NCBI RefSeq assembly: GCF_008298035.1
Contig: NZ_CP042910.1
Coordinates: forward strand, 7,130,001-7,194,000
Reading direction: 5' to 3'
Source: Gimesia maris
GTDB taxonomy: Bacteria; Planctomycetota; Planctomycetia; Planctomycetales; Planctomycetaceae
Length of the DNA: 64,000 nt
The translations under genes and the position numbers were made by a program. A model generated the notes under the pieces. The model ran no database searches. It saw only the letters and a program-made list of their open reading frames with translations, and had not been told where the DNA came from. Below are positions 8,501 to 54,222 of this stretch, in pieces (the first letter of the stretch is position 1; every line of letters starts with the position of its first letter).

Positions 8501-8716
8501 AATCCCGGTGCGTTCATCAGACCGGTCTTACAGTACGGGTGGAATCCATCTGTCCGCCCGCGTGGCGAATTTCAAACCAGTTTCACACCGCAATCGGAAC
8601 TGATGGAAACCTCAAACTGGAATTATCTACCACGAAAAACACGAAATGACACGAAATTAAAAACGGGTGACCCCGGATGCAATCCGGGGCGAGCGCAGCG
8701 AGCAGGAGGTCGCAGT
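8501..8716 (+). repeat. Direct repeat unit, copy 1 (contains full ACCACGAAA element)
   Basis: This unit starts with AATCCCGGTGCG and includes the CCATCTGTCCGCCCGCGTGGCGA motif (8546-8568), a spacer, then a full ACCACGAAA element (8628-8716). The element shows three ACGAAA boxes, a hairpin with CCCCGGAT and ATCCGGGG arms at 8671-8689, and the tail GCGAGCGCAGCGAGCAGG. The last 171 bp are about 95% identical by eye to copy 2; the first 45 bp are looser. Confidence 0.85.
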
Positions 8717-8748
8717 TGACGCGTGCGAATAAGATCAGGGCTGATCCC

Positions 8749-8967
8749 AATCCCGGCACGCTCATCAGACAGTCATGGGCAGATACAAGGGCAGGACCCA
8801 TCTGTCCGCCCGCGTGGCGAATTTCAAACCAGTTTCACACCGCAATCGGAACTGATGGAAACCTCGAACTGGAATTATCTACCACGCAAAACACGAAACG
8901 ACACGAAATTAAAAACGGGTGACCCCGGATGCAATCCGGGGCGAGCGCAGCGGCAGGAAGTCGCAGT
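8749..8967 (+). repeat. Direct repeat unit, copy 2 (abuts desaturase stop codon)
   Basis: Second copy of the unit at 8501-8716 in the same orientation. It contains the CCATCTGTCCGCCCG motif from 8798, the ACCACG element from 8881 and a hairpin with arms 8923-8930 and 8934-8941. It ends three bases before the stop codon of the desaturase gene, which reads toward it. Confidence 0.85.
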
Positions 8968-8970
8968 CTG

Positions 8971-9975
8971 TCAGTTCTTCGCAGTCTGTTGCTGCTGGGC
9001 AAATTTGGGAGGCTTGACTGCCGTTGGTTTGTCATTGGGGGGAATCGTCTTGACGACTTTCCAGGCGAGGCCCAGTTTTTCGAGGACCAGAATCGCACCG
9101 TAGGTCATATCGAGTTCCCACCATTTGTGGCCGTTCTTTGCCATTCGCTGGTACTTGTGATGGTTATTGTGCCAGCCTTCGCCGTAGGTCATCAGGGCGA
9201 CCCACCACAGGTTTTTGCTGTCGTCCGTGGTTTCGTAATTACGATAGCCCCAGATGTGGGTAGCGGAATTCACGAACCAGGTCGCGTGCAGCACATAGAA
9301 CAGACGCACAAACATCCCATACACGACCATGCTGATCGCGGTCTCTCTGCCGCCCAGCCAGTAACCGATGCCATATAAAATGGCGCCTAGACCAATGTGC
9401 CAGAACAGAAATGTTTTCTGCAGGAACCGCATGAACGGGTCTTTGAGCAGATCGGGAGCAAACCGCTGATGGGTGGCCTGAATTTCTTCAGCGCTGTGAT
9501 AAGGAACGAGCCAGAGAATATGGCTCCACCAGCGACCATCGCGCGGTGAATGCGGATCGCCGGGCTGGTCGCTGTGCAGATGATGTTTCCGGTGATTGGC
9601 GACCCATTGAATCGGAGGTCCCTGCCCGGCCAGTAAACCAATCAGGCCGATCGTACGGCTCATGAAGGAATATGTCTGAAAGCTGCCATGGGTGAGCAGG
9701 CGATGATAGCCCATGCAGATCCCAATGCAGCCGGTTAACCAGCCCAGGAATACACAAGTCAGCAGGCCTGTCCAGGTGAAGTAAAAGGGAGCCGCCAGCA
9801 GTCCCAGGTGGATGGCGACAACCCAGCCAATATTGGCCCAGTCAGTGGTCGCATATTTACCCGGCTGTGCTGGTTCAGTTTGGGGTGTCTCAGGTTCGGG
9901 CGTCTCAGCAGCTGCGTTTTCAGGAAGAAGTTCATCCGTTTCCGGAAGCGGCGCGAGTGTCTGCTGTGAATTCAT
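8971..9975 (-). CDS. Acyl-CoA/fatty-acid delta-9-type desaturase
   Basis: 334 residues. Three histidine boxes are present in family order: HRLLTH after the first membrane pair, HRKHHLHSD in the middle, and GEGWHNNHHKYQ near the C-terminus. They bind the di-iron centre that inserts a cis double bond into a saturated acyl chain with O2 and electrons from a reductase. Hydrophobic pairs near residues 50-95 and 185-230 fit the four-helix membrane topology. The first 45 residues are an acidic, proline-rich extension (PETPQTEPAQPG) that many bacterial members lack. It stands alone, with no adjacent ferredoxin or reductase gene. A repeat copy ends three bases past its stop codon. Confidence 0.93.
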   Translation of the reverse strand: MNSQQTLAPLPETDELLPENAAAETPEPETPQTEPAQPGKYATTDWANIGWVVAIHLGLLAAPFYFTWTGLLTCVFLGWLTGCIGICMGYHRLLTHGSFQTYSFMSRTIGLIGLLAGQGPPIQWVANHRKHHLHSDQPGDPHSPRDGRWWSHILWLVPYHSAEEIQATHQRFAPDLLKDPFMRFLQKTFLFWHIGLGAILYGIGYWLGGRETAISMVVYGMFVRLFYVLHATWFVNSATHIWGYRNYETTDDSKNLWWVALMTYGEGWHNNHHKYQRMAKNGHKWWELDMTYGAILVLEKLGLAWKVVKTIPPNDKPTAVKPPKFAQQQQTAKN

Positions 9976-10190
9976 ATTTAAGAGCCCGATCCGATCTATA
10001 TCTGTATGTAAATAAAAAGTCGGCAGATTTTAGGGGGATTGGCGAATTGTGTCTATAGCGGTGAGGTCGATTGGAAAAAGACAGGGAAATTTCTTAAAAC
10101 GGGTGTACAGAAGCAGTTATGAATCAGGAGCCTCGGGGGACGTTTTAATCTCTTGCATGGTGAAATAAGTGATATCGTGAATGCATCCAT

Positions 10191-10499
10191 TTACCTGGAT
10201 TGCTTGAAGAAATTATCTTTCCAGTGGGGGAAACCAAACAATAGAGCCACGACGAGACTGAGCACAAAAGTCTTCCAGAGCCAGACATCCCACGGTTGAT
10301 AGTACCTGGAGGCGTCTCCCCAAACAATCCATTCGATAAATGGAAAGATTAAAGCAAAGACGGCGACCAGTAGCGAAGTCAGCAGGTAACGCGATAGAAA
10401 ATGAATCCGCCAATATCGACAGCTCAATAGATGAATGGGTAATGCAAGTAGAACTACCAGAACCGCTTGAATCAGAGCACCACCAGCGCCTGCTCCCAT
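10191..10499 (-). CDS. Small membrane protein of unknown function
   Basis: 102 residues with three hydrophobic segments (about 7-24, 36-54 and 74-92) separated by short charged loops. An AAGGA sequence about 7 nt before the ATG supports translation. I recognise no family. It lies alone between the desaturase and a thioredoxin-fold gene, all on the minus strand, with about 90 bp to the latter. Overlapping frames look like shadows. Confidence 0.55.
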   Translation of the reverse strand: MGAGAGGALIQAVLVVLLALPIHLLSCRYWRIHFLSRYLLTSLLVAVFALIFPFIEWIVWGDASRYYQPWDVWLWKTFVLSLVVALLFGFPHWKDNFFKQSR

Positions 10500-10591
10500 C
10501 TTTTTTTCCTTATCAAAATCAACGTTAAAGTTCTATTTCGAGATATAATTTATCACGGGAAATTCAGTCATCGGTCTAATATTCCATTAAA

Positions 10592-11110
10592 TCACGGATC
10601 AATATGAACCACACGATACGACGGCTCTGTCTGTAACTCGCGCAGCTTTTTGATTTCGGGGATCAGTTGCTGTTCGTAGAGCCCCTCTATCGTAATCGCG
10701 CGTTTAATGACTTCGTGGTTGGAATTCTGCGTCAGCAGAATGACTCCCAGTGGAGAAATATCGTCGAAATAACCCTGCCAGGCTTCAAACTGGTGATGAG
10801 GCAGTTCTGCAATATCAATTTGGTAGCAGCTGATGGGTTGACTGCGGACCAGCTTGAGTACTGCTGGATCTTGAGAATAAAAGTACTCGTGCCCCCACGT
10901 AGTGATACACCAACTGGCTTTTGCGCTGATCAGAACCAGTTTGCCTTGTTCCAGATCCTGGTGAACGCCTGCCAGCGAATACGGGGTCCAGTCAATCTGA
11001 TCTGGTTTGACGGGGAACGGAAGCAGAAAATAAAGCCGAATCAGCATGAGAGCCAATAGCGGTCCTGTAACTAGATGAGCCAGGCGAATGTTTGTGATGC
11101 GAGTCTGCAT
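10592..11110 (-). CDS. Membrane-anchored thioredoxin-fold protein, DsbD-gamma-like, second cysteine lost
   Basis: 172 residues. One N-terminal helix (about residues 10-31) anchors a domain that aligns by eye with the C-terminal domain of DsbD: GKLVLISAKASWCITTWGHE corresponds to the strand and active-site turn, and ISPLGVILL to the strand with the cis-proline. DsbD has CxxC here. This protein has C-I-T-T, so the resolving cysteine is replaced by threonine. It may therefore work through a mixed disulfide or a single thiol, or act only as a binding domain. It would face the periplasm. The family call is moderate; the missing cysteine is directly visible. Confidence 0.65.
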   Translation of the reverse strand: MQTRITNIRLAHLVTGPLLALMLIRLYFLLPFPVKPDQIDWTPYSLAGVHQDLEQGKLVLISAKASWCITTWGHEYFYSQDPAVLKLVRSQPISCYQIDIAELPHHQFEAWQGYFDDISPLGVILLTQNSNHEVIKRAITIEGLYEQQLIPEIKKLRELQTEPSYRVVHIDP

Positions 11111-11367
11111 TTTCTTCGTTCTCTGGTGTTAATAAACAATATTCCGAAACTGCTTGCGGAAAAGAGTTTGCGCCGTCAATATAACCGACAAAGTATGCTG
11201 ACCAGAACCTCCGGTTTATTGAATTCAAACGAAATTGAATGAACCTGGTATCATAAACAGCGGTCCTTTCGTTATAATGTGCCTGTAGCCAGTCTTGAGC
11301 CCTTTCGATGGGCAAACAGGGTCCGATATTCACTCGCCATTCTATCAATCAGACCGTGGGAACGACT

Positions 11368-11679
11368 ATGAAATTTCAACTTGTACTACAGTTTAATGGA
11401 GCCGTAATTTCTGATTACGATTCACTCGTGGATCTGGAATCCGTCATCATCGATCAAATCCAGGTGGATGGCAAGACGATTGTCGACGGACATGATTTCG
11501 GCAGTTCGGAAATGAACCTGTTTATGACCGTCGATGATCCGGCGAAAGTGCTGAGCCAGATCAGAACGCAGATCGAACATCCATTGATGAACCGATTCAA
11601 AGCCGGCTATCGTCCCATCAGTGAAGATGGCTTTCATGCGATCTGGCCCGAAACGCTGCATGAATTCTCAGTCAAGTAA
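11368..11679 (+). CDS. Hypothetical cytoplasmic protein
   Basis: 103 residues from the ATG at 11368 (MKFQLVLQFNG). An upstream in-frame start would add 20 unconvincing residues. No signal peptide or membrane segment. The mixed alpha-beta pattern, with FNGAVISDYDSLVDLESVI and a later DGFHAIWPE, looks like a small single-domain protein of the kind seen as immunity-type or uncharacterised proteins, but I do not recognise a family. It is isolated, with both neighbours on the other strand. A TATAAT at 11273-11278 could be a -10 element, though no good -35 is visible. Confidence 0.6.
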   Translation: MKFQLVLQFNGAVISDYDSLVDLESVIIDQIQVDGKTIVDGHDFGSSEMNLFMTVDDPAKVLSQIRTQIEHPLMNRFKAGYRPISEDGFHAIWPETLHEFSVK

Positions 11680-11748
11680 GCGACACTGCTGCTGAGGCAA
11701 CCGGTGAAAAAACGCTCTGGCAGTGCAATTCATTTACTGCGGTAAAAT

Positions 11749-13326
11749 TCAATTTCCGCAGATGTCGAATTCGATATGGGGATATTTCTTGCGGGCTTCC
11801 GGTGTGAGTGGTACCGGTTCCTGGATCGCGATATCACACCATATCAACCGGGACAGTTGAGGTAGCGTATCGAGCAGCGCCAGGCGTTCGTCGGTCAGAG
11901 AGCTCGGCGCCCGAATTTCTATCTGCTCCACATTCGATAACCAGGGCAGCAGATGGGCAGACTCTTCTCCAAAATTCAATGCATTCACATCCAGACTTTT
12001 GAGAGACGGCATTTGTGCAAGCAGGAGTAAGGTCTCCTGGTTCAGATTCAGATCCTTGCAGTAAAAACTTTCGAGCTGACTGAGTCGTGTTAATGGCTGC
12101 AGCGAATAAGCATCAGGCAGTGTAATGGGAACATGACATTCCTGCAGGTTTTTGAAGCGGCCCAGTTGTCTCAGTGCCTGACGGGCTTCATCACCGGTCA
12201 GATGCATTCCCGTATCCCAGCCGATGATCAGGTTAGTCATCCCGGGCAGATCGCTGGCCAGTTTTTCCAGCAGATAACTCATTTCTTCTGTCGATCCGGA
12301 GGGGATCTTAAGTGAAGTGAGTTGGGGAGCGAGTACGAACGCGTCTGACAGTTTCTTTCTGGGGGACACATTCCGCACCACCCACTTTTCCAGTTTTTGA
12401 TGATCGCCGTCCTTCAAAAATTTGACGAGCACATCCTGCTTGACGGTCCCGCAATCGACTTCTAATGCAACCAGTTCCGAGCAGCCCGAAAGCTTCTTCC
12501 AGAAAGAGGTGGCACGTTCAGGCACCAGAGGCATACACAGTTTCAAGTCTTCCAGATGGGGTAGATCCAGTATTTTTTCTGCGACTGCGGAATCCATTTT
12601 TTTCTTGCCGAAGTGCAGATGTAGCCGCCGTAATCCATCCATCTGTGCAATCTGCTCGAGCGCCGTGTCATCCAGATGCGAATGCAGAATTTCCAGGTCC
12701 TGTAATTGGGGAATATTGCGGAGCGCCTCATAACCACGCTCATTAATCCGACAGTAAGAAAACTTGACGCCATCCAGATTTTTAATCTCCGCAACGGCTT
12801 CGATGCATTCTCCCAGTTCCGGATTGGATTGGTCGCGGGTTCCATAAAACCAGATGCGGACGGGAAATGGCAGTTGATTGATCAGCGCGACCGATTTTTG
12901 AAGGGTCTCGGCATGCTGATAGATTTTTTTCCCGTCGACGATCTTCTCTGGATTGCCGACCCAGATGGAGAACGGCTCGCCATTCCGGGGGAACCAGAGT
13001 GTCAGTTTCTGATTGCGGATCTGCTGATATAAATGGTTTAACGCAGGATCATTCCAGGGTTCCCCTGAACCACGCCTGGCGTTCGCAGACTGCAAACCGC
13101 TTAAATGGGGAACACGACTGGCAATCACCTGATTTATTTCATCCAGCCGACGACCAGACTTCTGTAAATCGGTATGTGTGTGATGTTGAATCGAAGGAGT
13201 CACATCAGTCAGCGCCTGCTTATCAGCGACAACCGCCTGTGTTCGATCTGAGTTGATCAGAAAACCTCCAATGCCAGCCAGCGCCACCAGCACCGCCACA
13301 AACGGAATCAACCATTGTCGCAACAT
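11749..13326 (-). CDS. Membrane-anchored or secreted leucine-rich-repeat protein
   Basis: 525 residues. Residues 1-27 (MLRQWLIPFVAVLVALAGIG...) form a signal peptide or anchor. From about residue 170 on, repeats of the LxxLxxLxL type appear, such as GYEALRNIPQLQDLEILHS and GLRRLHLHFGKKKM, each about 24 residues. LRR proteins bind other proteins through the concave face of the solenoid. In planctomycetes similar proteins are common and mostly uncharacterised. A Shine-Dalgarno-like AGGAG 8 nt before the ATG supports the start. It has no co-oriented neighbour close by. A second, smaller LRR protein is encoded at 46571-47479. Confidence 0.8.
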   Translation of the reverse strand: MLRQWLIPFVAVLVALAGIGGFLINSDRTQAVVADKQALTDVTPSIQHHTHTDLQKSGRRLDEINQVIASRVPHLSGLQSANARRGSGEPWNDPALNHLYQQIRNQKLTLWFPRNGEPFSIWVGNPEKIVDGKKIYQHAETLQKSVALINQLPFPVRIWFYGTRDQSNPELGECIEAVAEIKNLDGVKFSYCRINERGYEALRNIPQLQDLEILHSHLDDTALEQIAQMDGLRRLHLHFGKKKMDSAVAEKILDLPHLEDLKLCMPLVPERATSFWKKLSGCSELVALEVDCGTVKQDVLVKFLKDGDHQKLEKWVVRNVSPRKKLSDAFVLAPQLTSLKIPSGSTEEMSYLLEKLASDLPGMTNLIIGWDTGMHLTGDEARQALRQLGRFKNLQECHVPITLPDAYSLQPLTRLSQLESFYCKDLNLNQETLLLLAQMPSLKSLDVNALNFGEESAHLLPWLSNVEQIEIRAPSSLTDERLALLDTLPQLSRLIWCDIAIQEPVPLTPEARKKYPHIEFDICGN

Positions 13327-13695
13327 TCTTACTCTCCTACTCTCAACAGCTGGTTCCTGAACCAGATGCCTGCCCCTTCAAAGCCGTGCTGAACAGGGAG
13401 AGAACTACTTATCCCCTCAGCCGATCACTTCACTAACTTATTGTACAGAACAAAACAGGTGTTGTCCTCTTTCAGATTGACATTTTTCTGTTCCGCACTT
13501 TCCCCTGAAAGGTTACGTTACGTATGTCATATCATGTCAACAGTTTATCAAAAAAAGATTCTAAACCTCCAGATTGAGTAATCTCCCTCCTTTTTCAGCG
13601 ACTTTTTTTTTCAAAAAAGCCGGTAACACTGCGCCGGTTTTTTCGCATGGTATTTCAGTCGCGGATTAATCATTCACTTTGGAGGGGAAAACATC
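13327..13695. other. Divergent intergenic region
   Basis: 369 bp between the LRR gene and the methyltransferase gene, which point away from each other, so both promoters should lie here. A hairpin followed by T residues (13613-13643) stands about 50 bp before the methyltransferase start. I see no clear sigma-70 promoter pair. Confidence 0.5.
13613..13643 (+). terminator. Terminator-like hairpin in the methyltransferase leader
   Basis: Six A (13613-13618), one bulged G, CCGG (13620-13623), a 10-nt loop, CCGG (13634-13637) and six T (13638-13643) pair into a stem ending in a T run. No gene on the + strand ends just upstream, so it may be a leader attenuator or the remnant of one. The core stem is only four G-C pairs plus A-T pairs. 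Confidence 0.4.
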
Positions 13696-14790: not shown

Positions 14791-14804
14791 TCCAGATGCG
14801 TGAA

Positions 14805-30398: not shown

Positions 30399-30429
30399 AT
30401 TTCGTGTGGTTTCGTGCTTTTCGTGGTAG
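30399..30429 (-). repeat. ACCACGAAA repeat, reverse, after HAD gene
   Basis: Reverse-oriented TTTCGTGTGGTTTCG...TTCGTGGTAG segment 25 bp past the HAD stop codon. It faces a forward full copy at 30531-30622, forming an inverted pair about 100 bp apart. Confidence 0.85.
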
Positions 30430-30530: not shown

Positions 30531-30622
30531 TACCACGAAAAACACGAAACTTCACGAAAAGCAAAATAATGGGTGGGCCCGGATAGACATCCGGGCCGAG
30601 CGCAGCGAGCAGGAAACTGTCA
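30531..30622 (+). repeat. ACCACGAAA repeat, full forward copy
   Basis: Three ACGAAA boxes, then a hairpin with arms GGCCCGGAT (30576-30584) and ATCCGGGCC (30589-30597), then the tail GAGCGCAGCGAGCAGG. The stem bases differ from the copies at 8.6 and 35.3 kb but remain paired. Confidence 0.85.
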
Positions 30623-31273: not shown

Positions 31274-34200
31274 ATGTCCCGCGGTGATGTGAATTCGGCT
31301 GCTGCTGACGCTGGTGCTGCCAGTGTGGCTTCGACTGCTGCGCTGTCGGAACTGCCGAAACTGATTTCACAGGCGATGGCCGGCGACCAGTTTCGCTTCT
31401 CACAACGACTGCGATCGATCCGGCAGGCACAGAAAAGTAAAAAGCCGTTCGATAAAAATCTGCAGCGGCTGCGGGAGGAACTGGAGAAATCACTGGCCCG
31501 CCGCGACGAACGGCTCAAGCGCTGCCCTAAAATCACGTTTGACCAGAGTCTGCCGATCCATCAGGAACTGGCGACCATTCAGAAGACGATTGAAGAGAAC
31601 CAGGTGGTCATCGTCTGCGGAGAAACCGGCTCGGGGAAATCGACGCAGCTCCCCAAATTACTCCTGTCGATGGGACGCGGAATCAGCGGCATCATCGGGC
31701 ATACTCAACCCCGCCGGATCGCCGCCCGCTCGGTTGCCGCCCGTATCTCAGAGGAACTGGGCCGTGAACAGGGAACCGCCTGTGGCTTCAAGATTCGCTT
31801 CACCGACACCACGAACCCGAACACCTACATCAAGCTGATGACTGACGGCATTCTGCTGGCGGAAACTCAGACCGACAGCTTCCTCAATCAGTACGATACG
31901 ATCATCATCGACGAAGCACACGAACGTTCGTTGAACATCGACTTCCTGCTCGGCTTTCTCAAACGCCTGCTCCCCAAACGCAGAGACCTGCGGGTGATCA
32001 TCACCTCGGCGACGATTGATGCGGAACGCTTCAGCGAACATTTTGCCGGCAGCGAAGGACCGGCGCCGATTCTGAATGTCTCGGGACGGACGTATCCGGT
32101 CGAGATTCGCTATCGTCCCTTTGATGATGAACCGGCTGGTAAAGAGGCGGGCAAAGAAACGGGCAATAAATCGCAGAACAGTTCCCGCGATGAACAGTCA
32201 CAACTGGCGGATGCGGTCAACGAACTGGCGGCCATTGATGACGGCGACATCCTGATTTTTGTCGCGACTGAATGGGATATTCGTGAGACAGCCAAACTGT
32301 TACGCGGTCGATCGATCATCGGCGATGATGGCGGACGGCAGACTGAGATTGTGCCTCTCTACGGACGACTGTCGACGGCGGAACAGAACAAGGTCTTTCG
32401 TCCTTCCTCGTATCGGCGGATTGTGATTGCAACCAACGTCGCAGAATCGTCGATCACAGTGCCCGGCATCCGCTATGTGATTGATACGGGGCTGGCACGC
32501 ATCAGCCGTTATTCGAGTCGCTCACAGGTGCAGCGTCTGCCGATTGAAGCGGTCTCGCAGGCGTCCGCCAATCAGCGAGCCGGTCGCTGCGGTCGTGTCG
32601 CACCGGGGATCTGTATCCGACTCTACAGCGAAGCCGACTATAAGAGCCGCGATGAATTCACGTCGCCCGAAATCCTGCGCACCAACCTGGCGTCGGTCAT
32701 TCTGCAGACGCTGAACATGAGGCTGGGCGCGATTGAAGAGTTCCCGTTTATCGATCCCCCCAAGCCCACCGCGATCCGCGATGGCTACAGTACGCTGTTC
32801 GAACTGGGAGCGATTGACGAACAGAACCGGCTGACCGACATTGGCCGCAAGATCAGTCGCCTGCCGGTCGACCCGCGTATCGCACGCATGATTCTGGCGG
32901 CACACGACGAAAACTGTCTGCACGAAATCCTGATCATCGCCGCAGCCCTGGAACTGCAGGACCCGCGAGAACGACCGATTGAAAAACAGCAGGCCGCCGA
33001 CGAAGCCCACGAACAGTTTCGCGACCCCGATTCGGATTTCCTCAGCTTTCTCAAACTGTGGGACTTCTACCACAAGTTGAAAGAGGAGCAGTCACACAGC
33101 AAGCTGCGACGCGCGTGTGTGCAGAATTTTCTGTCATACAACCGGCTGCGGGAGTGGGCAGATATCTTTCGTCAACTGCGTCAACTGGTGGAAGAGAGCG
33201 GGATCAAACCACATCCGCGGAAAGACGATTCGGCGGCCATTCATCGTGCGCTCTTGCCCGGCCTGCTGTCGAACATCGCCATGCGTTCGGACTCGCACGA
33301 ATACACGGGAGCAGGACAGCAGAAGTATTTTCTCTGGCCTGGCTCGGGAATTTTTGAGAAGAAGCCCAAGTGGATCATTTCCGCCGAGCTGATCGAAACC
33401 AGTAAACGCTACGCGCGAACCGTCGCGAAGATTTCGCCCAACTGGATTGAGCCGGCGGCGCCGCACCTGGTGAAGAAGAGCTGGAGCGATCCCCGCTGGA
33501 ACGGCGAAGCTGCTTCAGCAGTCGCTGCGGAAAAAGTGACGCTGTTTGGATTGACCATCGTGCCCCGTCGCTCAGTGCATTATGGCAAGATCGATCCCGA
33601 GCATTCGCGGACCCTGTTATTGCAGTACGGCCTCGTCGAAGGTGACATTAATATCAACGTCGATTTTCTGGCGCACAATCAGAAATTCATCGAAGATCTG
33701 GAACAGCAGCAGGCCCGCTCGCGTCGGTACGATTTGATTCCTTCGCAGGAACAGCAGTTCGCCTATTATGATCAGCGAATTCCCGAAGACGTGTATGATG
33801 GTGTGAGCCTGAAGAAGTGGTGGAAAGTCGCCAGCCTTAAAACGCCGACGCTGCTGAATATGCGGCTGGAAGATTTTTTCGATACGCAGTCGGAAGAGAT
33901 TGACGAAGGCGAATTCCCGGACGCGATCAACATGGGCAAGATGCAATTCCCGCTGGAATATCATCTGGAGCCGGGTGCCGAAGAAGACGGCGTCACCGTG
34001 TCGATTCCGCAGGAGAGTCTGAACCAACTTTCACCGCAACGACTGGGCTGGCTCGTGCCGGGACTGCTGGAAGAAAAAGTGGCCGCGATGATCAAGGCGC
34101 TGCCTAAAGCGGTTCGCCGCATGCTGGTGCCAGCACCTGAAACGGCAAAGCAGGTCGTCAGTAAACTGGAGTTCGGCAAAGGGTCGTTTGAAGAGACGGT

Positions 34201-35278
34201 GGCCGAGATGCTGTCGCAGATCTCCGGCGAGCGGATTACCGCCGACCAGTTCGAGATCCAGCGTCTGCCTCAACATCTGCAGATGAATATCCGCGTGCTC
34301 GACCAGGGGGGCGACGCGATCGCCGTCAATCGGAATCTGACTCAACTGCGACAGGAATATGGTTCGAAAGCCGCCAGCAGTTTTACGGCTCTCTCCGATG
34401 ATCACTGGAGCCAGTCTGGCCTGACGGACTGGACGTTCGGAGATTTTCCGGCAGAGGTGCAGATTCAACACGATCAGCTTTCGCTCACCGGCTTTCCGAG
34501 TTTAGTCGATGAACAGACCTCCGTGGCGCTCTGCCTGCGGGATGCGCCCGAACGGGCCGCTTATGAAACGCGGTTTGGTTTGCGAAGGCTGTTCATTCTG
34601 TCGGAACACAAGCGGTTGAAAGCCCAGGTCGAACACTTACCCGACCTGAACCGGATCTCATTGTACGCAACCGCAATCGGCGGGATCAATTTGCGGGAAC
34701 AACTGGTCGAACTGCTGGCAGAACGGACCCTGTTTGGCAAGAAAGAACAACTGCCAAGAAACGAGGCCCAGTATCGTCAGCTGGTGAAAGAGTGGCGGAA
34801 CCAGATTCCGGTCGCCGCGCAGGATCTGGCGAGTCTGCTGCCGGGACTGTTTGAGCAGTATCACAAGATGAAGGTGACACTCGATAAAACCAAGGTACCC
34901 GCGTGGAGCGAGCCGCTGCATGACATGCGGGCACAACTGAATGCGATGATCAACAACCGCTTCCTGGTCAGCACGCCTTACCCCTGGCTGCAACAGTTCT
35001 CCCGTTATCTGCAAGGCATGGAGATGCGGCTGAGCAAGCTGGGGGGAACCGGCCTCAAGAAAGATATCGCGAACATTCGCAGTATCTCACGTTACTTCGA
35101 ATTGTATTCACAGCGGGCCCGGCAGCATCACGAACGGGAGATTGTGGATCCGCAGCTGATCAAATTCCGCTGGATGCTGGAGGAACTACGCGTGTCGCTG
35201 TTCGCCCAGAAGCTGGGGACGGCCTTGAAGGTCTCGCCGAAAATTCTGGATCAGCAGTGGGCGGCGGTGCGAGACTGA
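31274..35278 (+). CDS. hrpA: ATP-dependent RNA helicase HrpA
   Basis: 1334 residues, close to E. coli HrpA. The DEAH-box motor is complete: Walker [31 protein letters not shown], and motif [16 protein letters not shown]-terminal half typical of HrpA (HA2, OB and DUF3418 domains) fills residues about 660-1330. This protein unwinds RNA and acts in mRNA processing and ribosome rescue in E. coli. The N-terminus is Ala-rich and has no strong ribosome site, so the start is uncertain by a few codons. It stands alone, bounded by repeats on both sides, with a full repeat copy nine bp after its stop. Confidence 0.93.
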
Positions 35279-35287
35279 TTTTTTCTG

Positions 35288-35375
35288 CTACCACGAAAAA
35301 CACGAAACCACACGAAAAAAACAAGGGGTGGTACCGAATGCAATTCGGTACGAGCGCAGCGAGCAGGAAACTGAC
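35288..35375 (+). repeat. ACCACGAAA repeat, full forward copy after hrpA
   Basis: Starts nine bp past the hrpA stop. Three ACGAAA boxes, a hairpin with arms GTACCGAAT (35331-35339) and ATTCGGTAC (35343-35351), then GAGCGCAGCGAGCAGG. Clean example of the type-A tail. Confidence 0.88.
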
Positions 35376-35430
35376 AGAGTCAGCGATCATTTCAGGTAGG
35401 AAAATCGCATTCGTTTGAACATCTTCACTC

Positions 35431-35482
35431 TCATTTCCTGTTGTCTTCGACAATCCCGGATTACATCCGGGACCACCCGAGG
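35431..35482 (-). repeat. ACCACGAAA repeat, reverse hairpin half
   Basis: Reverse copy with the GTTGTC-type hairpin (one mismatch) and TCCCGGAT/ATCCGGGA, lacking the ACGAAA part. With the copy at 35288 it forms an inverted pair. Confidence 0.7.
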
Positions 35483-35509
35483 TTGTTGTAATGTATCAGG
35501 TTTGAAAGT

Positions 35510-35552
35510 GTTACCCATGTGTCCGAACGGCTGTTACCCATGTGTCCGAACA
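35510..35552 (+). repeat. Tandem ATGTGTCCGAAC motif
   Basis: Two tandem copies of GTTACCCATGTGTCCGAAC, 23 bp apart. The same motif occurs in reverse at 8188-8212, and degenerate forms (CCATGTGTCCGCCCG) at 8546, 8798, 50902 and 53981. Confidence 0.75.
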
Positions 35553-35575
35553 GCTTGTTTAATCCCTTGATCCAT

Positions 35576-41319: not shown

Positions 41320-41350
41320 CTACCACGAAAAGTACGAAACTACACGAAAA
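41320..41350 (+). repeat. ACCACGAAA repeat, forward, seven bp after miaA (copy R9)
   Basis: CTACCACGAAAAGTACGAAACTACACGAAAA, three ACGAAA boxes. Lacks the hairpin half. Forms an inverted pair with 41464-41497. Confidence 0.88.
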
Positions 41351-41463
41351 CCCGTTGGTAAGCTGAAAGAATCAAAGGTACTTTGATCTGGATCTGTTAT
41401 TTTTTCAACAGATTTTTTAAGAATCAACTTACGATTCATCTGAAAACCCAAAGATGCCAGTCT

Positions 41464-41497
41464 TAAATTTCGTGTGTTTTCGTGTCTTTCGTGGTAG
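41464..41497 (-). repeat. ACCACGAAA repeat, reverse, after GxxExxY gene (copy R10)
   Basis: Reverse copy ending four bp from the GxxExxY stop codon. With 41899-41930 it flanks that gene as an inverted repeat. Confidence 0.88.
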
Positions 41498-41501
41498 TAA
41501 A

Positions 41502-41879
41502 TCACAAAACAAATCGCTTCACAGTCGCTTTGGGATGCGAACCGAAGTTGACCAGTAGACCGAGTTTCAATTCGGTCGCTTTCAGATAGTTGAAAATCTG
41601 TGACTGATGTTCGATGGCGATTTCTTTGACTGCTTTGAGTTCGACAATGATGGAGTCATAACAGATGAGATCGGGCTGATACATCTGAGTCAGTGGCACG
41701 CCTTTGTACTTTAATTTTAATGTCGGATGAGGACGAAAAGGGATTTCCCGAGTCAGCAGTTCGCGTTCCAGGCACTCCTGGTAAACGGCTTCCAGAAAAC
41801 CGGAACCCAGTTCTCGGTACACCTCAAACACCGCTCCCTGGATGGCGTAACATTCCTGTTTGAACATCAGCTCCGGCAT
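41502..41879 (-). CDS. GxxExxY protein (PD-(D/E)XK-like)
   Basis: 125 residues when begun at the ATG at 41879 (MPELMFKQECYAIQGAVFEV). A longer frame would translate the flanking repeat. The name motif reads GFLEAVY in LGSGFLEAVYQECLE. A PD...ELK pattern (YQPDLICYDSIIVELKAV) matches the PD-(D/E)XK nuclease fold. The family is small, abundant in planctomycetes and of unproven function, often counted as a nuclease. Here it is enclosed by four repeat copies that form nested inverted repeats, with the nearest copies four bp from the stop and 20 bp from the start. This makes it a candidate partner of the repeat. Confidence 0.85.
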   Translation of the reverse strand: MPELMFKQECYAIQGAVFEVYRELGSGFLEAVYQECLERELLTREIPFRPHPTLKLKYKGVPLTQMYQPDLICYDSIIVELKAVKEIAIEHQSQIFNYLKATELKLGLLVNFGSHPKATVKRFVL

Positions 41880-41898: not shown

Positions 41899-41930
41899 GC
41901 TACCACGAAAAGTACGAAAACACACGAAAA
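41899..41930 (+). repeat. ACCACGAAA repeat, forward, before GxxExxY start (copy R11)
   Basis: CTACCACGAAAAGTACGAAA... 20 bp upstream of the GxxExxY start codon. Pairs with R10 as inverted repeat around the gene. Confidence 0.88.
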
Positions 41931-42046
41931 ATTTCGTTGGTAGCCGGGAACACACAAAGTTGCTTCGAACTAAAAAATCTGTTTTTCCCTTTTACCTGAT
42001 AAGCTCACTCTTCTGCCTGATCTCATCGGCTTCGAATTATCATTCT

Positions 42047-42084
42047 TAAATTTCGTGTGTTTTCGTGTCTTTCGTGGTAGTAAA
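42047..42084 (-). repeat. ACCACGAAA repeat, reverse (copy R12)
   Basis: Reverse copy nearly identical to R10 through CTTAAATTTCGTGTG and the rest. Together with R11 it repeats the R9-R10 block (41320-41497) as a direct repeat of about 185 bp on the other side of the gene. Confidence 0.85.
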
Positions 42085-46554: not shown

Positions 46555-46570
46555 GTGAGTTGAGGTGTGA

Positions 46571-47709: not shown

Positions 47710-49332
47710 ATGATCAGTACGCAGCTCTCGAAAATATTAATTGTAGATGATTCTGATGTTGTCCGCAGCATCCTCTGCCAGGCACTCCAGCAGGATGGAT
47801 ACGAACTTCATACAGCAGCCGATGGTGAAGAAGGCCGCCAGAAAGTACATACCCTGAAACCGGATCTGGTCCTGCTGGATGTGGAGATGCCTAAACTGGA
47901 TGGTTTTGCCGTGCTGCGGGAGGTGCGCGCCAATTTTAAAGTCGACGAAGTCGCCGTCATTATGGTGACCTCTCAAAGTGACGGTAAAGGAATTACCCGC
48001 GCTTTTGAAGAAGGAGCCTTCGACTATATCCCCAAGCCGGCAACCGATTCCGAAATCAAGGCACGTGTCCGAAACGCGATTCGCGCCCTGCAGTTGCTCC
48101 GCGAGCAGAAGACACTGCGAATACAGGCCGAAGCTGCCAACCAGTCGAAAAGTGCCTTCCTGGCAAACATGAGTCATGAAATCCGTACACCGATGACAGC
48201 CATTCTAGGCTATACCGACATCCTGGAACTGGAAGCGAAGTCGCTGCAACTGCCCGAGTTGATCTCCGATTCACTGGATACGATCAAACGCAATGGCGGG
48301 CATCTGATGGAACTGATCAACGACATTCTGGATCTCTCAAAAATTGAGGCCGGTAAACTGGATGTGGAATCCATTTGCTGTTCGCCCCAGACGATTGTGG
48401 AAGAGGTGCTGGAACTGGTTCAGGTCAGGGCAGAAGCCAAGGGGCTGAAGCTGGAAGCCAGCTATCAGTTCCCACTGCCTGCAGAAATTCATTCCGACCC
48501 GACACGAATCCGGCAGATTCTGATCAACCTGATTGGCAATGCGATTAAATTTACGGAAGTCGGCACAATTCGCCTGAATACATCCTTTCTGGAAAATCCC
48601 GGTGAAGAACCACAGGTTCAGTTCACGGTAATCGATCAGGGAATCGGGATGACGGAAGCACAGATGTCTAATCTGTTCCGCCCTTTCTCTCAGGCCGATT
48701 CCTCGACCACCCGCAAATATGGCGGCACCGGACTGGGGCTGACCATCTGCAAACGTCTGACTGATGTGTTGGGAGGCGATATTTCGGTAACCAGCAAACT
48801 GAATCAGGGGTCACAATTTAGTGCCACAGTAAAAACGGGCAACCTGGAAGGCATCCCACTGCTGCAGGAATTGCAACAGAATGACAATACTCAATCCACG
48901 AAGCCCCTGCCCGCACAGTCTGAAGAACAGGCCCTGTCTCTGAAAGGGAAAAAGATCCTGCTGGCTGAAGATGGTCCGGATAATCAGAAACTGATCCGTT
49001 TTATTCTGAAAAAAGCCGGAGCCGAAGTGACGGTTGCTGAAAATGGTGAAGCCGCCCGCCAGGCCGCAATGCGGGCAATGGAAATCGGGTTGCTGTATGA
49101 TGTGATCCTGATGGATATGCAGATGCCGATTCTGGACGGCTATGGCGCGACCCGAATCCTCCGCGAACAGGGTTATTCAGGACCGATCATTTCCCTGACA
49201 GCCAATGCCATGGAAGGGGATCGGGAAAAATGCATCAGCGTCGGTTGCAATGATCATGTGACGAAACCCATCGACCGCAGAAAGCTGATCAGCATGATCG
49301 CGAACTGCTGTGAAGTCGAGACGGCGGTTTAA
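47710..49332 (+). CDS. Hybrid histidine kinase, REC-HisKA-HATPase-REC
   Basis: 540 residues. The first receiver has the acidic pocket D13-D14, phospho-acceptor D57 (LLDVEMP) and K109. HisKA holds H156 in SHEIRTPMT, and HATPase has N-box [18 protein letters not shown] and GGTGLGLTI. The second receiver has D469 (LMDMQMP) and ends TKPIDRRKL. There is no transmembrane or sensor domain, so a cytoplasmic kinase whose first receiver probably takes the input. It is a hybrid with two receivers but no output domain, implying a separate Hpt or effector not in this window. No partner in the neighbourhood. Confidence 0.92.
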
Positions 49333-49369
49333 GCTACGGATTTAAAAAGGGTCACGGTTAAAAAAAGTC

Positions 49370-50428
49370 TCAAGGGCTCTGCAGATACGGGGCCAGTTTT
49401 TTCTTAGCGGCTTCCCTTGCCTGGTGCGCCACATCAGCGAGTCTGACAGGCGTACCCGCTTTCTGTTTGCTCAAATCAGCGGCCGACATGAACGTGTAGA
49501 TTTCGATCGATTCTGCCGGGGTGACAGGGGCTTTGCCCGTGCGGAAGAATTTGACGACTTCCACCAGCAGCGGTTCATAACCGCTGAAACTGCCGATCTG
49601 TTCGATACCTTTCGTCCCGAATGCGGTCCCTCCGTAGCCGCCCTGGTAGCCATTGCTGGCTTTGCGACGACCGCGAAAGGTACCGATGCGACCGTTTTTC
49701 CACGTACCAATTGCCACGTCGGTTTCGGGAGTCGCGACACGTACTACTGTCTCACACCCAGGCCCCATGATTGTATAGAGGGTTTCCACACCATGAATGC
49801 CGTACCAGTAAAAATCGGGGTGTGTGCTTTCCACCGGACAGGGACTATACGCATCGCAGCCGATGATCTCGCCGATCACGCCGCCGTTAATCTTTTTGGC
49901 TCCGTCGGTATAGCGCAATGATGAGGAACTGAAGACAGGCGTCTTGAAATGTTCTGCGGCTTCGTAGATGGCAATCACATCAGTCAGATCACCGGCGATC
50001 GGTTTGTCGACGAACAGCGGCTTACCCGCTTTCAATACAGGCAGCGCCTGTTCCAGATGCACGCGACCATCATTGCTCTCCAGCAGAACGGCATCCACCT
50101 TCTCCAGTAAGGCTTCAATGCTGGGTACGATTTCGACGCCCTGTTTTTTCACCGCTTCAGTTATTTCCGGAACGCTTTCCAGGCTCTCTTTGATCGTTTG
50201 GCTTCCCTGGGGATAAGCGGCGACGACTTTGCAGTGTTTGAATTCCTCGTATTTTGAATCCGGATCGTTCAGGATTTGAGAGAAGTTGCTGGAGTGTGAT
50301 GTATCCAGACCGATGATGCCGATGCGGATCGTTTCAGGTTCGTCCGCACGGATGGATTCGGACAGGCAGAATAAAACCAGCAGAAGCAGGCTCAAAGGAA
50401 CACAGGTGACGCGAAGTGGGTGACTCAT
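49370..50428 (-). CDS. Exported Gfo/Idh/MocA-family oxidoreductase
   Basis: 352 residues. A signal peptide (VTCVPLSLLLLVLFCLSESIRA) precedes the Rossmann start RIGIIGLDTSH. The family middle motif PLFVDKPIAGDLTDVIA gives the EKP-like lysine of Gfo/Idh/MocA enzymes. C-terminal domain at about 150-320. These enzymes use NAD(P) to oxidise sugars or inositols; exported members like glucose-fructose oxidoreductase carry tightly bound cofactor. It overlaps the preceding VOC gene by four bases (ATGA), so a translationally coupled pair. Substrate unknown. Confidence 0.87.
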   Translation of the reverse strand: MSHPLRVTCVPLSLLLLVLFCLSESIRADEPETIRIGIIGLDTSHSSNFSQILNDPDSKYEEFKHCKVVAAYPQGSQTIKESLESVPEITEAVKKQGVEIVPSIEALLEKVDAVLLESNDGRVHLEQALPVLKAGKPLFVDKPIAGDLTDVIAIYEAAEHFKTPVFSSSSLRYTDGAKKINGGVIGEIIGCDAYSPCPVESTHPDFYWYGIHGVETLYTIMGPGCETVVRVATPETDVAIGTWKNGRIGTFRGRRKASNGYQGGYGGTAFGTKGIEQIGSFSGYEPLLVEVVKFFRTGKAPVTPAESIEIYTFMSAADLSKQKAGTPVRLADVAHQAREAAKKKLAPYLQSP

Positions 50429-50769
50429 TGCTCAAACTCTCCAAATTCAGAACCTGCTGAAAACTCCATGAATTCATACACGGCACCATCGATCAGCACA
50501 AATACGACTTTCAGATTTTCCATCGCCTGAAAGGGACCGAGCAACACTTCCAGACCTGCGATCTCCTGTTCGATATCCGGAACTTTAAAAGCGATGTGCG
50601 GCTGGTTACGAACCGGACCGGTGACCGGTGTGTCGGCTTCGAACCGCAGGTATTCAATTTTGTAGGGATGCTCGTTGGGATTGGTGACGTAGACTTTCGT
50701 TTCCGGAACATAAATTTCGTCAGGCTGTGGATCATCGGTAATCACGCCTACATGGTGAAACTCTCGCAT
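50425..50769 (-). CDS. VOC-family (glyoxalase/bleomycin resistance-like) protein
   Basis: 114 residues; AAGGA 6 nt before the ATG. VOC fold: FHHVGVITDDPQPDE at the start and the paired PHIAFKVPDIEQEIAGLEVLL and VFVLIDGAVYEFMEFS. It binds a metal and small substrate or acts as a chaperone-like binding protein. The stop overlaps the start of the Gfo/Idh gene, which suggests that the two act on one substrate. That is inference. Confidence 0.85.
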   Translation of the reverse strand: MREFHHVGVITDDPQPDEIYVPETKVYVTNPNEHPYKIEYLRFEADTPVTGPVRNQPHIAFKVPDIEQEIAGLEVLLGPFQAMENLKVVFVLIDGAVYEFMEFSAGSEFGEFEQ

Positions 50770-50901
50770 GGCGGTTCCTTGAAACAGTGGGGAATCGTAT
50801 TATCTGTCACCTGTTGCTCACCATTTGATTCTACCGTGGAAGAGAAGACAGTTCAAAGCGGAGGGAATGTATTTCGGAATCTCCACTTCGGGTCGCAATA
50901 T

Positions 50902-50925
50902 CCCATGTGTCCGCCCGTCTGGCGA
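50902..50925 (+). repeat. CCATGTGTCCGCCCG motif copy
   Basis: CCCATGTGTCCGCCCGTCTGGCGA, the same motif as at 8546, 8798 and 53981, within the 297-bp gap 50770-51066 that otherwise holds only the rpsU terminator. Confidence 0.65.
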
Positions 50926-51008
50926 CTGTTGATTCTGAATCACGTGACATCGGCAATGGTGAAAATCTCAGACGTACATCTCTCATCAGACTCTCCAGTA
51001 CCGCGCAC

Positions 51009-51040
51009 AAAAAAACGCAGCCTGAAACAGACTGCGTTTT
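51009..51040 (-). terminator. Rho-independent terminator of rpsU
   Basis: Arms AAAACGCAG (51012-51020) and CTGCGTTTT (51032-51040), perfect 9 bp. Minus-strand T run comes from A 51009-51015. It lies 26 bp past the rpsU stop. Confidence 0.8.
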
Positions 51041-51066
51041 GATATCTTCGATCGGTGTCTCAGTGA

Positions 51067-51264
51067 CTACTGGTTACTCTGCAGACGAGACAGGCGGGCG
51101 CGACGCTCAGCACGGCGTCGGTTTCTACGATTTTCATCGCTGGGCTTTTCGTAATACTCACGACGTCGCATCTCTTTTTTGATACCAGCGTGCTCAACAA
51201 TCTTGCGAAACCGTTTAACTGCCTCCTGAATTGATTCGTTTTCTCGTAACCGAAGCTTAACCAC
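51067..51264 (-). CDS. rpsU: 30S ribosomal protein S21
   Basis: 65 residues, GTG start with AAGGTG upstream. The sequence starts [21 protein letters not shown] and carries a highly basic tail ([19 protein letters not shown]), as in S21, the small late-assembling protein of the 30S subunit near the anti-Shine-Dalgarno region of 16S rRNA. Single-gene unit with its own terminator. A palindrome overlaps its likely promoter upstream. Confidence 0.95.
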
Positions 51265-51320
51265 TCAAATCACCTTTTCTTCTTCCTGATTTCAATAAAA
51301 GTTGTAACCATAACCAATTG

Positions 51321-51349
51321 AATATACATCGTCTCATCAGTGATGAGAA
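51321..51349 (-). promoter_or_regulatory. rpsU promoter with overlapping dyad
   Basis: On the minus strand a -10 TATATT (51326-51321) lies 17 bp after a -35-like TTCTCA (51349-51344). The perfect dyad TCTCATCA-C-TGATGAGA (51348-51332) overlaps the -35 and the spacer, a classic repressor position. Promoter identity is modest (-35 match 4 of 6). Confidence 0.45.
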
Positions 51350-51493
51350 TTCAGACGTTTTCACCTGTAACGGGTCTGTGAACAGACCTCTCGCTACGGA
51401 GTTGGAACGACAAAGATAACAAAACGAGCAGGATCTGCAAAGCCAACGGCTGAAATACTCTTTGAATTTCACACCAAAGTGCACATCCAGCCA

Positions 51494-52405
51494 CTAGTCT
51501 TTGGCTTTCAGAATCCCCAGTCGCTGTAGTTTGGACTGGCATTCGTCCCGTTCGCGGCTCCGTTTCAGGGATTTCCAGGTCTCGTCCTGCACTTCCAGAA
51601 ACGCTTCTTCTGAAAACGGGGGTACCAGCGATTTCTCGGCGGCTGTGGTCATCAGACGCGCCAGCACTTCTTTATCGAGTCGCGTCAGGAACATCGCTCC
51701 CTGGCGATAGTCTTCGAAGGCTTCCCAGACCACTGGAAACAGCGGTTTCACAATCGCTTCACCAATCGCCCGCGAATACTCCTGAATTTCCCATTGTGCA
51801 TGAGAGTCCATTCGTAAACTCAGGAAATGAATCAGGTTATGTAAATCAATTTTCCAGTAAGCTTCAGTGTAAGTCGCCAGGGGCAGGTCTTTTCGTGCCT
51901 GCTCGCGGGCCACGCCTGCTTCCAGCCGGGCTTCGTACACATCACGGGCATGTTTCTGAAATGCGGTCTCTTCTTCGGTCAGTTTTGTCCCTAAATCTTC
52001 AGTAAGCGGGGCATCGCTCCCCTGTCGATTCGAGGTCGCCTGGGTGCGCCATTCGCCGGGCAATGTGGTCTGAGCTGAATCGATGGCAACGGAATACCGG
52101 GTGCTGTATTCGTTCACATTCGCAGTCCGGTGACGAATCCACTGCCGCCAGCAGTCCATCGGAACCCGAACCAGAAACTTGAGTTCGGCCATTTCAAAGG
52201 GTGTACTGTGACGATGTCGCATCAGATAGCGGATCAGCGTACGGTCATCGGAAACCCGTTTGGTTCCTTCCCCATAACTGACACGGGCTGCCTGAACAAT
52301 CGAACTGTCATCGCCCATGACATCTACGAGACACACAAAACCATCATTGAGAACCGGGATCTTTTTCCAGCGCAGTTCTTCAACGAGTTCAGACCGCTCC
52401 GTCAT
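51494..52405 (-). CDS. thyX: Flavin-dependent thymidylate synthase ThyX
   Basis: 303 residues from the ATG at 52405 (GGAG eight nt upstream); a GTG nine bases earlier lacks a site. The hallmark RHRTANVNEYSTRYS (RHRxxxxNExSxRY) is present after MELKF-type residues, and a second motif around NLIHFLSLRMDSHAQWEIQEY binds FAD. ThyX methylates dUMP with methylenetetrahydrofolate and reduced FAD, replacing ThyA. The length is longer than the bacterial average of about 230, with extra C-terminal helices. Cytoplasmic; single-gene unit. Confidence 0.93.
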   Translation of the reverse strand: MTERSELVEELRWKKIPVLNDGFVCLVDVMGDDSSIVQAARVSYGEGTKRVSDDRTLIRYLMRHRHSTPFEMAELKFLVRVPMDCWRQWIRHRTANVNEYSTRYSVAIDSAQTTLPGEWRTQATSNRQGSDAPLTEDLGTKLTEEETAFQKHARDVYEARLEAGVAREQARKDLPLATYTEAYWKIDLHNLIHFLSLRMDSHAQWEIQEYSRAIGEAIVKPLFPVVWEAFEDYRQGAMFLTRLDKEVLARLMTTAAEKSLVPPFSEEAFLEVQDETWKSLKRSRERDECQSKLQRLGILKAKD

Positions 52406-52588
52406 TGGGAACACTCCCCGAATGCGTTAAAAATGAAGTTGATGGGAATACCAGGCGCGGCGGCAGAAACGATCATTCCGCCACAGCACATTTATAGTCA
52501 ACCCTGCTCTCAAACGACACCGTACCGGTAGCCTCGTCTGTCAAAATCAATAAAATCGCCTGCAATTCCCGTCGTTTACCGCTTCCGA

Positions 52589-53653
52589 TCAAGCCAGACT
52601 CAAGCGGGAAATAATGTCCACCGTGCGGTTTTCCCGGGAAGATTTCAACGCGGCCAGCAGGATTTCGGTCACATGCCGGGCCGTCGCCGCATTCGATAAG
52701 GGGGGCTGAATTCCCTTCCGGATACAGTCCGCCCAGTGCTGATGTGAATTCTGCACGGGGTAGGTCGACAGATCAATAATTTCTTCGATCAGCGGCGCAT
52801 CTTCATCGACCTGGGAACTGGGACAATAATACCGCAGCGACTCGGCCTGACGACTGCTGACCAGTTTGCCCGCCGTCCCATGCACCGAAAATTCATAGGT
52901 TCGGGCAGCATCACACCAGCCGGTCTGCGCCGTTCCCAGCGCACCGCTTTCAAACTCCAGGATCATTGACGCCGTATCCTCCAGCTTCGTCGGTTTGGCA
53001 ACCGTCGTCAGTTTAGCCGTGATCGACTTGACCGCGCCGGCCACTCCTACCAGGTTGGCAATCGCATACACGCCCATGTCAAACAGCGCACCGACGTCTG
53101 CCTTGTCTGCATCGAAGAACCACAAATCGTCCGCCGGCTTCTCTTCCAGAATCTGCTGAATCCCCGCGTAATAGACTTCCGGCCCTCCATGACTGGCCCG
53201 CGCCTGGGCAGACGAGATCGTCCCCAGCTTCCCCTCCTGGATATAATCGCGACACGCCAGCACATGCGGATTCGACATGTAAGGCAGCGCCAGCACCGTC
53301 TGATCGTGATTGTCGGTCGCTTCCACAAACGCGTCTGCTTCATCCATCGACGTGCTTAACGGCTTCTGCATATAAACATGCTTGCCGGCTTTGATCGCTT
53401 TGATCCCCCATTCCACATGCAGGGGATGCGGCAACGCAATCGCCACCGCGTTCACTTCTTCATCGTCAATCACGGCCTGATATTCGTGGGTCCAGCGGGG
53501 CACTTTAAACTTGCGACACAGCACATCCAGCCGCGACTGCTTTCGACCAGAGAGCATGACCACATCACAGTGATCCACCGTCTGCAGTTCCGGCAGATGC
53601 ATCTTCGCAGCGATCCCACCCGCACCGATAATTCCGACTTTCAAATGTTCCAT
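52589..53653 (-). CDS. Gfo/Idh/MocA-family oxidoreductase, cytoplasmic
   Basis: 354 residues from the ATG at 53653, which has GGAG six nt upstream; the longer GTG frame from 53665 lacks one. MEHLKVGIIGAGGIAAKMHL is the NAD(P)-binding start, and KHVYMQKPLSTSMDEA gives the lysine motif (MQKPL). C-terminal domain from about 130. No signal peptide, so unlike the exported relative at 49370 it stays in the cytoplasm. Substrate unknown; family members oxidise sugars, inositols or their derivatives. A full repeat copy lies upstream. Confidence 0.9.
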   Translation of the reverse strand: MEHLKVGIIGAGGIAAKMHLPELQTVDHCDVVMLSGRKQSRLDVLCRKFKVPRWTHEYQAVIDDEEVNAVAIALPHPLHVEWGIKAIKAGKHVYMQKPLSTSMDEADAFVEATDNHDQTVLALPYMSNPHVLACRDYIQEGKLGTISSAQARASHGGPEVYYAGIQQILEEKPADDLWFFDADKADVGALFDMGVYAIANLVGVAGAVKSITAKLTTVAKPTKLEDTASMILEFESGALGTAQTGWCDAARTYEFSVHGTAGKLVSSRQAESLRYYCPSSQVDEDAPLIEEIIDLSTYPVQNSHQHWADCIRKGIQPPLSNAATARHVTEILLAALKSSRENRTVDIISRLSLA

Positions 53654-53817
53654 CAATGTCTCCACAATTTTTACTCACAGTTTCATACTGACGTAAGTTA
53701 GCTTTGTGGATTCAGTTTCTCCATTTCAACGCACGCTGTAAAGTCACCCTTACTGCGCCAGATGACTGGAAACAATCAGAATCGACTGTCAGTAAGGAAG
53801 ATTCCCTCAGAATTTTT

Positions 53818-53930
53818 CTACCACGAAAAGTAAGAAATGACACGAAAGAATTTTTATTCAGAGAGAAAGAATGGGTGGCCCCGAATGCAATTCGGGGTTG
53901 TCGGAGACAACAGGAAACTGTCAGTGAAAG
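53818..53930 (+). repeat. ACCACGAAA repeat, full forward copy with GTTGTC tail
   Basis: ACCACGAAAAG...ACACGAAAG boxes, extra 25 bp insert, hairpin CCCCGAAT/ATTCGGGG (53880-53897), then a second hairpin GTTGTC-GGA-GACAAC (53897-53911) and CAGGAAACTGTCAG. Full type-B example. Confidence 0.82.
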
Positions 53931-54129
53931 CATTCGAATGATCGGAGAATTTCCGATACAGGATTCTGCAGGATGCGGAACCATGTGTCCGCCCGCCTGA
54001 TCACGAGCAAATTAGTTTCACGCTGGAACGTGACCATCTAGAACATTCGCAGCACGACAATGCAAAGCTCGTCGATAATGCGAGAAAAACACATGGGTTT
54101 GCCCCTTCGCGAAATGATCGCTCACACCG

Positions 54130-54222
54130 TCAATTTCCTGCTCGCTGCGCTCGTACCGAATTGCATTCGGTACCACCCTTTGTTTTTACTTTCGTGCGGT
54201 TTCGTATTTTTCGTGGTAGCAA
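54130..54222 (-). repeat. ACCACGAAA repeat, full reverse copy
   Basis: Reverse copy. Tail CTGCTCGCTGCGCTCG, hairpin with GTACCGAAT (54153-54161) and ATTCGGTAC (54165-54173), then ACGAAA boxes ending in TTTTTCGTGGTAG. Ends 30 bp from the stop of the sigma-54 activator gene. Confidence 0.85.

Follow-up and report, generated by a model that had tools for sequence, protein, structure and literature searches.

In the 64,000 bp window of the Gimesia maris genome that we analysed (bases 7,130,001-7,194,000 of the single 7.82 Mb contig NZ_CP042910.1; G000 below), triple boxes of the 9-mer ACCACGAAA, here called module A, are one sequence type of a class of inverted arrays linked to a small nuclease of the GxxExxY family. 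The link is one of position, co-variation and co-occurrence: inverted arrays flank the nuclease gene here and in relatives from many phyla of bacteria and archaea, array type tracks protein sequence, arrays are commoner in genomes that carry the gene, and deletions and synteny breaks fall at boxes. We think it somewhat probable that module A forms the ends of a mobile-like element tied to the nuclease, with arrays that are recognised and cut by the element's own enzyme; DNA binding, cutting and transposition are what we infer from these patterns.

Triple boxes and the nuclease gene they enclose

An earlier note on this stretch had reported at least thirteen copies of one dispersed element made of boxes and a hairpin. 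The dispersed repeat is real and the count is lower, with 12 triple boxes in the window and 85 in the genome when up to 2 mismatches are allowed; reversing the pattern as a control left 0 matches genome-wide at the same tolerance. The single 9-mer on its own is poor evidence (with up to 1 mismatch it matches the window 27 times vs 16.8 expected, 2 of 100 shuffles being as high). The boxes are spaced by 9 and 10 bp, as had been described, and their likeness to an iteron or binding array is supported. They are clustered, the nearest other copy in the genome lying at a median of 471 bp, compared with ~31.6 kb if placed randomly. Their placement between genes was also borne out: 71 of the 85 lie outside mechanically called open reading frames (ORFs, at least 100 amino acids), which cover 78% of the examined stretches, and 21 are found between convergent and 20 between divergent ORFs.

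Two inverted units bracket the nuclease gene. The first (41322-41495, 174 bp) has a plus-strand box as its left end (41322..41349, pattern match) and a minus-strand box as its right end (41468..41495, pattern match), 6 bp past the nuclease stop codon; the second (41902-42078, 177 bp) begins with a plus-strand box (41902..41929), 22 bp from the likely nuclease start codon, and ends with a minus-strand box (42051..42078, pattern match). The minus-strand gene between them (41502..41879) encodes 125 amino acids and was assigned through profile searches to GxxExxY (PDDEXK_3, PD-(D/E)XK nuclease family), with 135.5 bits against TIGR04256 (cut-off 35) and 138.3 against PF13366 (cut-off 22). We chose the likely ATG at 41879 as its start and checked the bases; a longer ORF reaches 41957. 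The D and ExK catalytic residues (D96, E106 and K108) are invariant across 54 sequences, and a PDDEXK_3 search of the genome found this one gene only. The genes adjoining the locus encode an IPP transferase (miaA-like) and a menaquinone-biosynthesis protein. No known transposase domain was found in the bracketed gene, which matched only the GxxExxY/PDDEXK_3 profiles, and PHROGs holds no family for GxxExxY. No solved structure was a significant hit in a profile search, and two endonuclease I chains (E 0.42 and 0.5) are a lead only. The window protein is a member of the GxxExxY family, whose name, like PF13366, appears in the literature found only as an entry in lists.

GxxExxY genes were present in 112 of the 246 genomes of a phylum sample, with up to 15 copies per genome. 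Inspected by eye, the flanks of 30 relatives showed at most loci inverted arrays of other types (CACGGAG, CACAGAG, CACAAAG, CACAGAT and CATGAAG), and a strict ACGAA array pattern matched just 1 of the 30; the flanks show that box sequence differs between loci. A scan of GTDB contigs confirmed at least 549 loci, of which the best 80 were analysed; rows that carry a phylum name represent 23 phyla, and the window protein's closest relative within those 80, from Methylomonas, is accompanied by CACGAAA arrays, the same type as in the window. When the upstream flank was compared with the reverse-complemented downstream flank at 78 of these loci (2 of the 80 were too short and were left out), a score of at least 12 was reached at 54 of 78 vs 16 of 319 control ORFs, and a score of 20 at 20 of 78 vs 4 of 319 other ORFs of the same loci. 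Of the arrays found with a three-unit detector, 24 were forward and 5 reverse upstream, and 16 were reverse and 11 forward downstream. The share of genes that count as flanked by arrays varies with the detector, several thresholds having been computed. At loci L074, L076, L080 and L084 the GxxExxY reading frame starts within an array, and the box is translated as an HRDTE-like N-terminal stretch.

Array type, gene content and signs of movement

A box label, which requires at least three boxes, was assigned at 85 of 111 loci; in this labelling set, peptides with an in-frame stop were trimmed to the portion after the last stop. Five of the 111 proteins, shorter than 100 amino acids (L112, L115, L127, L130 and L147), were left out of the protein tree, which held 106 proteins, 82 of them labelled. 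On this tree, built from few columns and with many weak forks, the labels required 39 changes vs a shuffled mean of 57.1, and 0 of 200 shuffles were as low. Taken label by label, AGAT was clearly clustered and AAAG, AAAT and CAAG were not. The last box base by itself (G in 42 rows, T in 34) required 7 changes vs a shuffled mean of 25.1 and a minimum of 20 in 100 shuffles, and both of its states occur inside Planctomycetota, Chloroflexota, Acidobacteriota, Thermodesulfobacteriota and Methanobacteriota.

When a general pattern for arrays was applied, at least one array was detected in 108 of the 246 genomes, the reversed control scoring 2 over all genomes, and arrays per genome reach hundreds (427 in G044). 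Counting the arrays beside the GxxExxY gene itself, 74 of 112 carriers held at least three arrays vs 13 of 134 non-carriers, and at least ten were held by 52 carriers vs 7 non-carriers. Compared by family, the figures were 35 of 48 for carriers vs 3 of 38 for non-carriers, and permutation within families gave p 0.003.

Several genomes bear signs of movement and REARRANGEMENT. In G044, all 20 of the AGAT units fetched and 5 of the 7 GGAG units have a partner whose interior is homologous, in both orientations. An outer flank is shared with another unit by 13 of the 20 AGAT and 7 of the 7 GGAG units, and therefore the copied stretch was longer than the arrays. The miaA-like site was compared in 10 genomes of the genus. 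The gene stands between arrays in G000, G069, G181 and G238; G247 carries one solo unit, in which the first unit's left box is joined to the second unit's interior; in G246 there is a remnant; and the printed part of G048, G248, G250 and G251 contains no array, G248 having at most single-box remnants. A further G247 deletion, of 1.0 kb, lies between direct boxes (L056 2368-3373).

In the part of the region that was fetched from the congeneric G247, synteny breaks contain or abut boxes at window positions 8029-8236, 35284-35571, 53662-53873 and 54225-54252, and the blocks at these breaks are inverted and displaced; window 31664-35284 corresponds to G247:7118001-7121634. The break after window 8386 lies 243 bp before a box. 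At 50883-51001 the window side is free of boxes and the G247 junction carries a degenerate one.

The neighbouring hairpins

Modules A and B, the latter being the hairpins, often, yet not always, travel together. Both tail types proposed for the hairpins are real: in type B1 a stem of 9+3+9 precedes the tail GAGCGCAGCGAGCAGG, which has 94 genome copies at up to 1 mismatch, and in type B2 the stem is 8+3+8. A hairpin follows 6 of the 12 window boxes, which does not agree with the claim of a single element. B1 hairpins follow the plus-strand boxes at 8629..8656 (hairpin 8671-8690, tail at 8691), 30532..30559 (30576-30597) and 35290..35317 (35331-35351) and the minus-strand box at 54190..54217 (54153-54173, also on the minus strand), and a B2 hairpin (53879-53897) with the tail TTGTCGGAGACAAC follows the plus-strand box at 53820..53847, all five by pattern match and hairpin search. 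The plus-strand box at 8881..8908 (pattern match) is followed by a B1-type hairpin with an altered tail (8923-8942). Two further minus-strand boxes, both pattern matches, lie at 8101..8128 (1 mismatch) and, without a hairpin, at 30400..30427. The stems quoted in the earlier note are all present; the one placed at 35431-35482 is a minus-strand B2 hairpin (35454..35474, hairpin search) that has no box on its own strand.

Genome-wide, a B1 tail lies up to 130 bp downstream on the same strand at 31 of 85 boxes, and a box accompanies 31 of 94 B1 tails (B2 tails were uncounted). A single composite element was dropped as the main reading, 54 of 85 boxes being without a B1 tail and 63 of 94 B1 tails without a box. 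Complete composites of A and B do occur in tandem at G000:26973-27819 and 7029667-7030446, with periods of ~273 and 248-252 bp.

The paired substitutions reported for the stems were confirmed on 68 B1 and 49 B2 copies (44 and 28 unique stems), taken from fetched stretches picked mostly for boxes. Standard pairs occupy 83% of B1 cells (shuffles: mean 72%, maximum 75%) and 92% of B2 cells (mean 84%, maximum 87%). Double changes were found in 46 B1 cells over six pairs and in 22 B2 cells over five pairs, compared with at most 16 and 3 when the partners were slid by 1-3; shared descent of paralogous copies within one genome may add to this signal. Rfam gave 0 matches at the gathering threshold across the 64 kb window, and a known structured RNA was dropped as a candidate.

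B1 and B2 are often opposed on opposite strands and alternate in several clusters, forming inverted pairs as in bacterial interspersed mosaic elements (BIMEs), which are built of repetitive extragenic palindromic (REP) sequences. The genome has five Y1_Tnp genes, one of which (G000:1683811) stands amid several inverted B1/B2 pairs; its product contains VIMPDHVHSLIW and YIHMNP, which we take to be marks of a REP-associated tyrosine transposase (RAYT). Inverted B pairs surround this RAYT-like gene, and module B is therefore a REP/BIME family, though few of its copies have an exact GTAG foot: the foot before the stem reads GTGG in 28 and GTAG in 8 of 49 B2 copies, and GGTG in 34, GGTA in 16 and GTAG in 3 of 68 B1 copies. 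The hairpin covariation is real, but it is a property of an ordinary REP. Hairpin and boxes are thus of different kinds, the former a REP family of the RAYT type and the latter a separate, nuclease-linked array class. A Y1 transposase as partner of the boxes was dropped, since the B pairs around G000:1683811 have no box.

Mechanism, known systems and rival explanations

In its full form the proposed element would consist of a pair of inverted arrays, each with three boxes of 9-10 bp, enclosing a small PD-(D/E)XK nuclease (GxxExxY) gene, and in its short form of inverted arrays enclosing non-coding DNA only. The nuclease would recognise its own array type, probably on paired palindrome arms (a cruciform or hairpin), and cut there, after which host recombination and repair may copy, move or delete units. 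Composites of A and B could be A units colonised by REPs or amplified along with them. We hold more tentatively, as possible and somewhat short of an even chance, the wider proposal that GxxExxY and inverted iteron arrays form a separate class of minimal mobile elements in bacteria and archaea, whose sole protein would be an array-specific nuclease of the Cas4/RecB-type PD-(D/E)XK kind and whose non-coding derivatives would be large intergenic palindrome families that drive genome rearrangement. Together, arrays and nuclease hint at a kind of selfish DNA so far undescribed. The GxxExxY family, which has no assigned role, and a common but nameless class of repeats between genes would then account for each other; each GxxExxY protein predicts its own array sequence, which makes the pairing directly testable; and should the nuclease move or maintain its arrays, the partnership would parallel that of REP and RAYT on another nuclease superfamily.

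Several observations weigh against this proposal. With the strict three-unit detector, only 28 of the 80 GxxExxY genes had arrays nearby, and 15 had them on both sides. At least three arrays occur in the 13 non-carriers mentioned above, one of which holds 78. Within the genus (17 genomes, boxes with window spacing) box number does not track the gene, carriers having 85, 26, 5, 3, 2, 0, 0, 0 and 0 boxes and non-carriers 71, 54, 36, 22, 19, 3, 1 and 0; by the general pattern, G181 and G238 do have 49 and 51 arrays. In a test of 17 genomes whose best gene was labelled AGAG, GGAG or AGAT, many of them with several GxxExxY genes, the commonest of these three dispersed types was the label of the best gene in only 10. 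Physical linkage alone could carry array type together with the protein. Units of G178 share an interior in 0 of 6 cases and a flank in 2 of 6. No target duplication was seen by eye between G048 and G069 at the sole comparable site, where the left flank has diverged. On the G178 interiors, we dropped a miniature inverted-repeat transposable element (MITE) with fixed interior as a general rule.

The nearest published parallels come from three systems. REP/BIME sequences with RAYT (TnpA_REP) of the GTAG superfamily have been described (PMC3733652, PMC6006769), and a published survey of GTAG and CGTC REPs includes Planctomycetes among the carriers. Module B resembles them in that its palindromes are short, covary and are present in many copies, in that two types form inverted pairs and in the RAYT-like gene among them, and differs in that exact GTAG feet are few. 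Module A would by analogy follow the same logic, with palindromes scattered over the genome and a single enzyme gene that they bracket; it differs in having another nuclease superfamily and tandem boxes instead of a footed hairpin. Insertion sequences and MITEs share with module A a gene framed by inverted ends, the presence of short non-coding relatives that have these ends too, and a high copy number, whereas module A has no known transposase, had no visible target duplication at the one site compared and has interiors that are homologous in G044 and not in G178. The third parallel is the class 2 sites of Geobacter metallireducens, described in 2009 as 21 pairs of sites, each site being three TCTCCGTS repeats in tandem and the two partners lying on opposite strands, a varying distance apart (PMC2700814). 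TCTCCGTS is the reverse complement of SACGGAGA, and CACGGAG-type triple repeats in opposed pairs of the same form occur in G044 and G178; judged from the published motif, these sites appear to be the CACGGAG type of the module A array class. That description covers one species and interprets the sites as regulatory, and the nuclease goes unmentioned in its passages on them. The relevant passages of other Geobacter and Pelobacter genome papers contain no matching repeat, and no report linking such arrays to GxxExxY was found in a search that left most subscription journals outside.

The same 2009 paper predicts that its 21 paired sites serve a global regulator, perhaps IHF or HU (PMC2700814), and the arrays of module A could likewise be paired sites for such a nucleoid protein, the nuclease gene merely sitting among them. 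The box period of about one helical turn and the persistence of arrays in genomes without a GxxExxY gene fit this idea; it leaves unexplained the inverted placement around GxxExxY genes, the tracking of protein by array type and the co-occurrence, and we regard it as unlikely. That boxes and hairpin form one REP-like composite moved by a RAYT, with the nuclease gene as passenger, is a little harder still to credit: composites are frequent and tandemly amplified and the genome has five Y1_Tnp genes, but most boxes and most B1 tails stand apart, the B pairs around the Y1 gene lack boxes, and other box array types occur across phyla.

Two further accounts seem to us improbable. If nuclease and arrays made up a defence or self-versus-foreign system, with the arrays as markers or decoys, the Cas4/RecB-like fold and a weak and partial match of residues 102-149, in the C-terminal part, to PDC-M36A in PADLOC (E 3.6e-4) would find a place; no further gene lies regularly inside the arrays in the flanks inspected, and up to 15 gene copies per genome together with large non-coding families suit a spreading repeat better. 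Most doubtful of all is a structural RNA or terminator, in which hairpin and boxes would act in transcripts at gene ends. Stem covariation and the 21 boxes between convergent ORFs speak for it, but REPs covary too, nearly as many boxes lie between divergent ORFs, and the Rfam search of the window was negative.

Other repeats accompany the modules. One is a short motif, CCCATGTGTCCG, which is dispersed together with its variants and occurs close to several of the elements (window 35513-35550 and the vicinity of 8200, 50905 and 53985), and a further repeat with AGCCGCAGAGCGTTAGCTCCGGTTGTC and GCGGCTAACGCCGTACGGCTCATG is found between B2 hairpins and boxes at L044, L046, L060 and L065.

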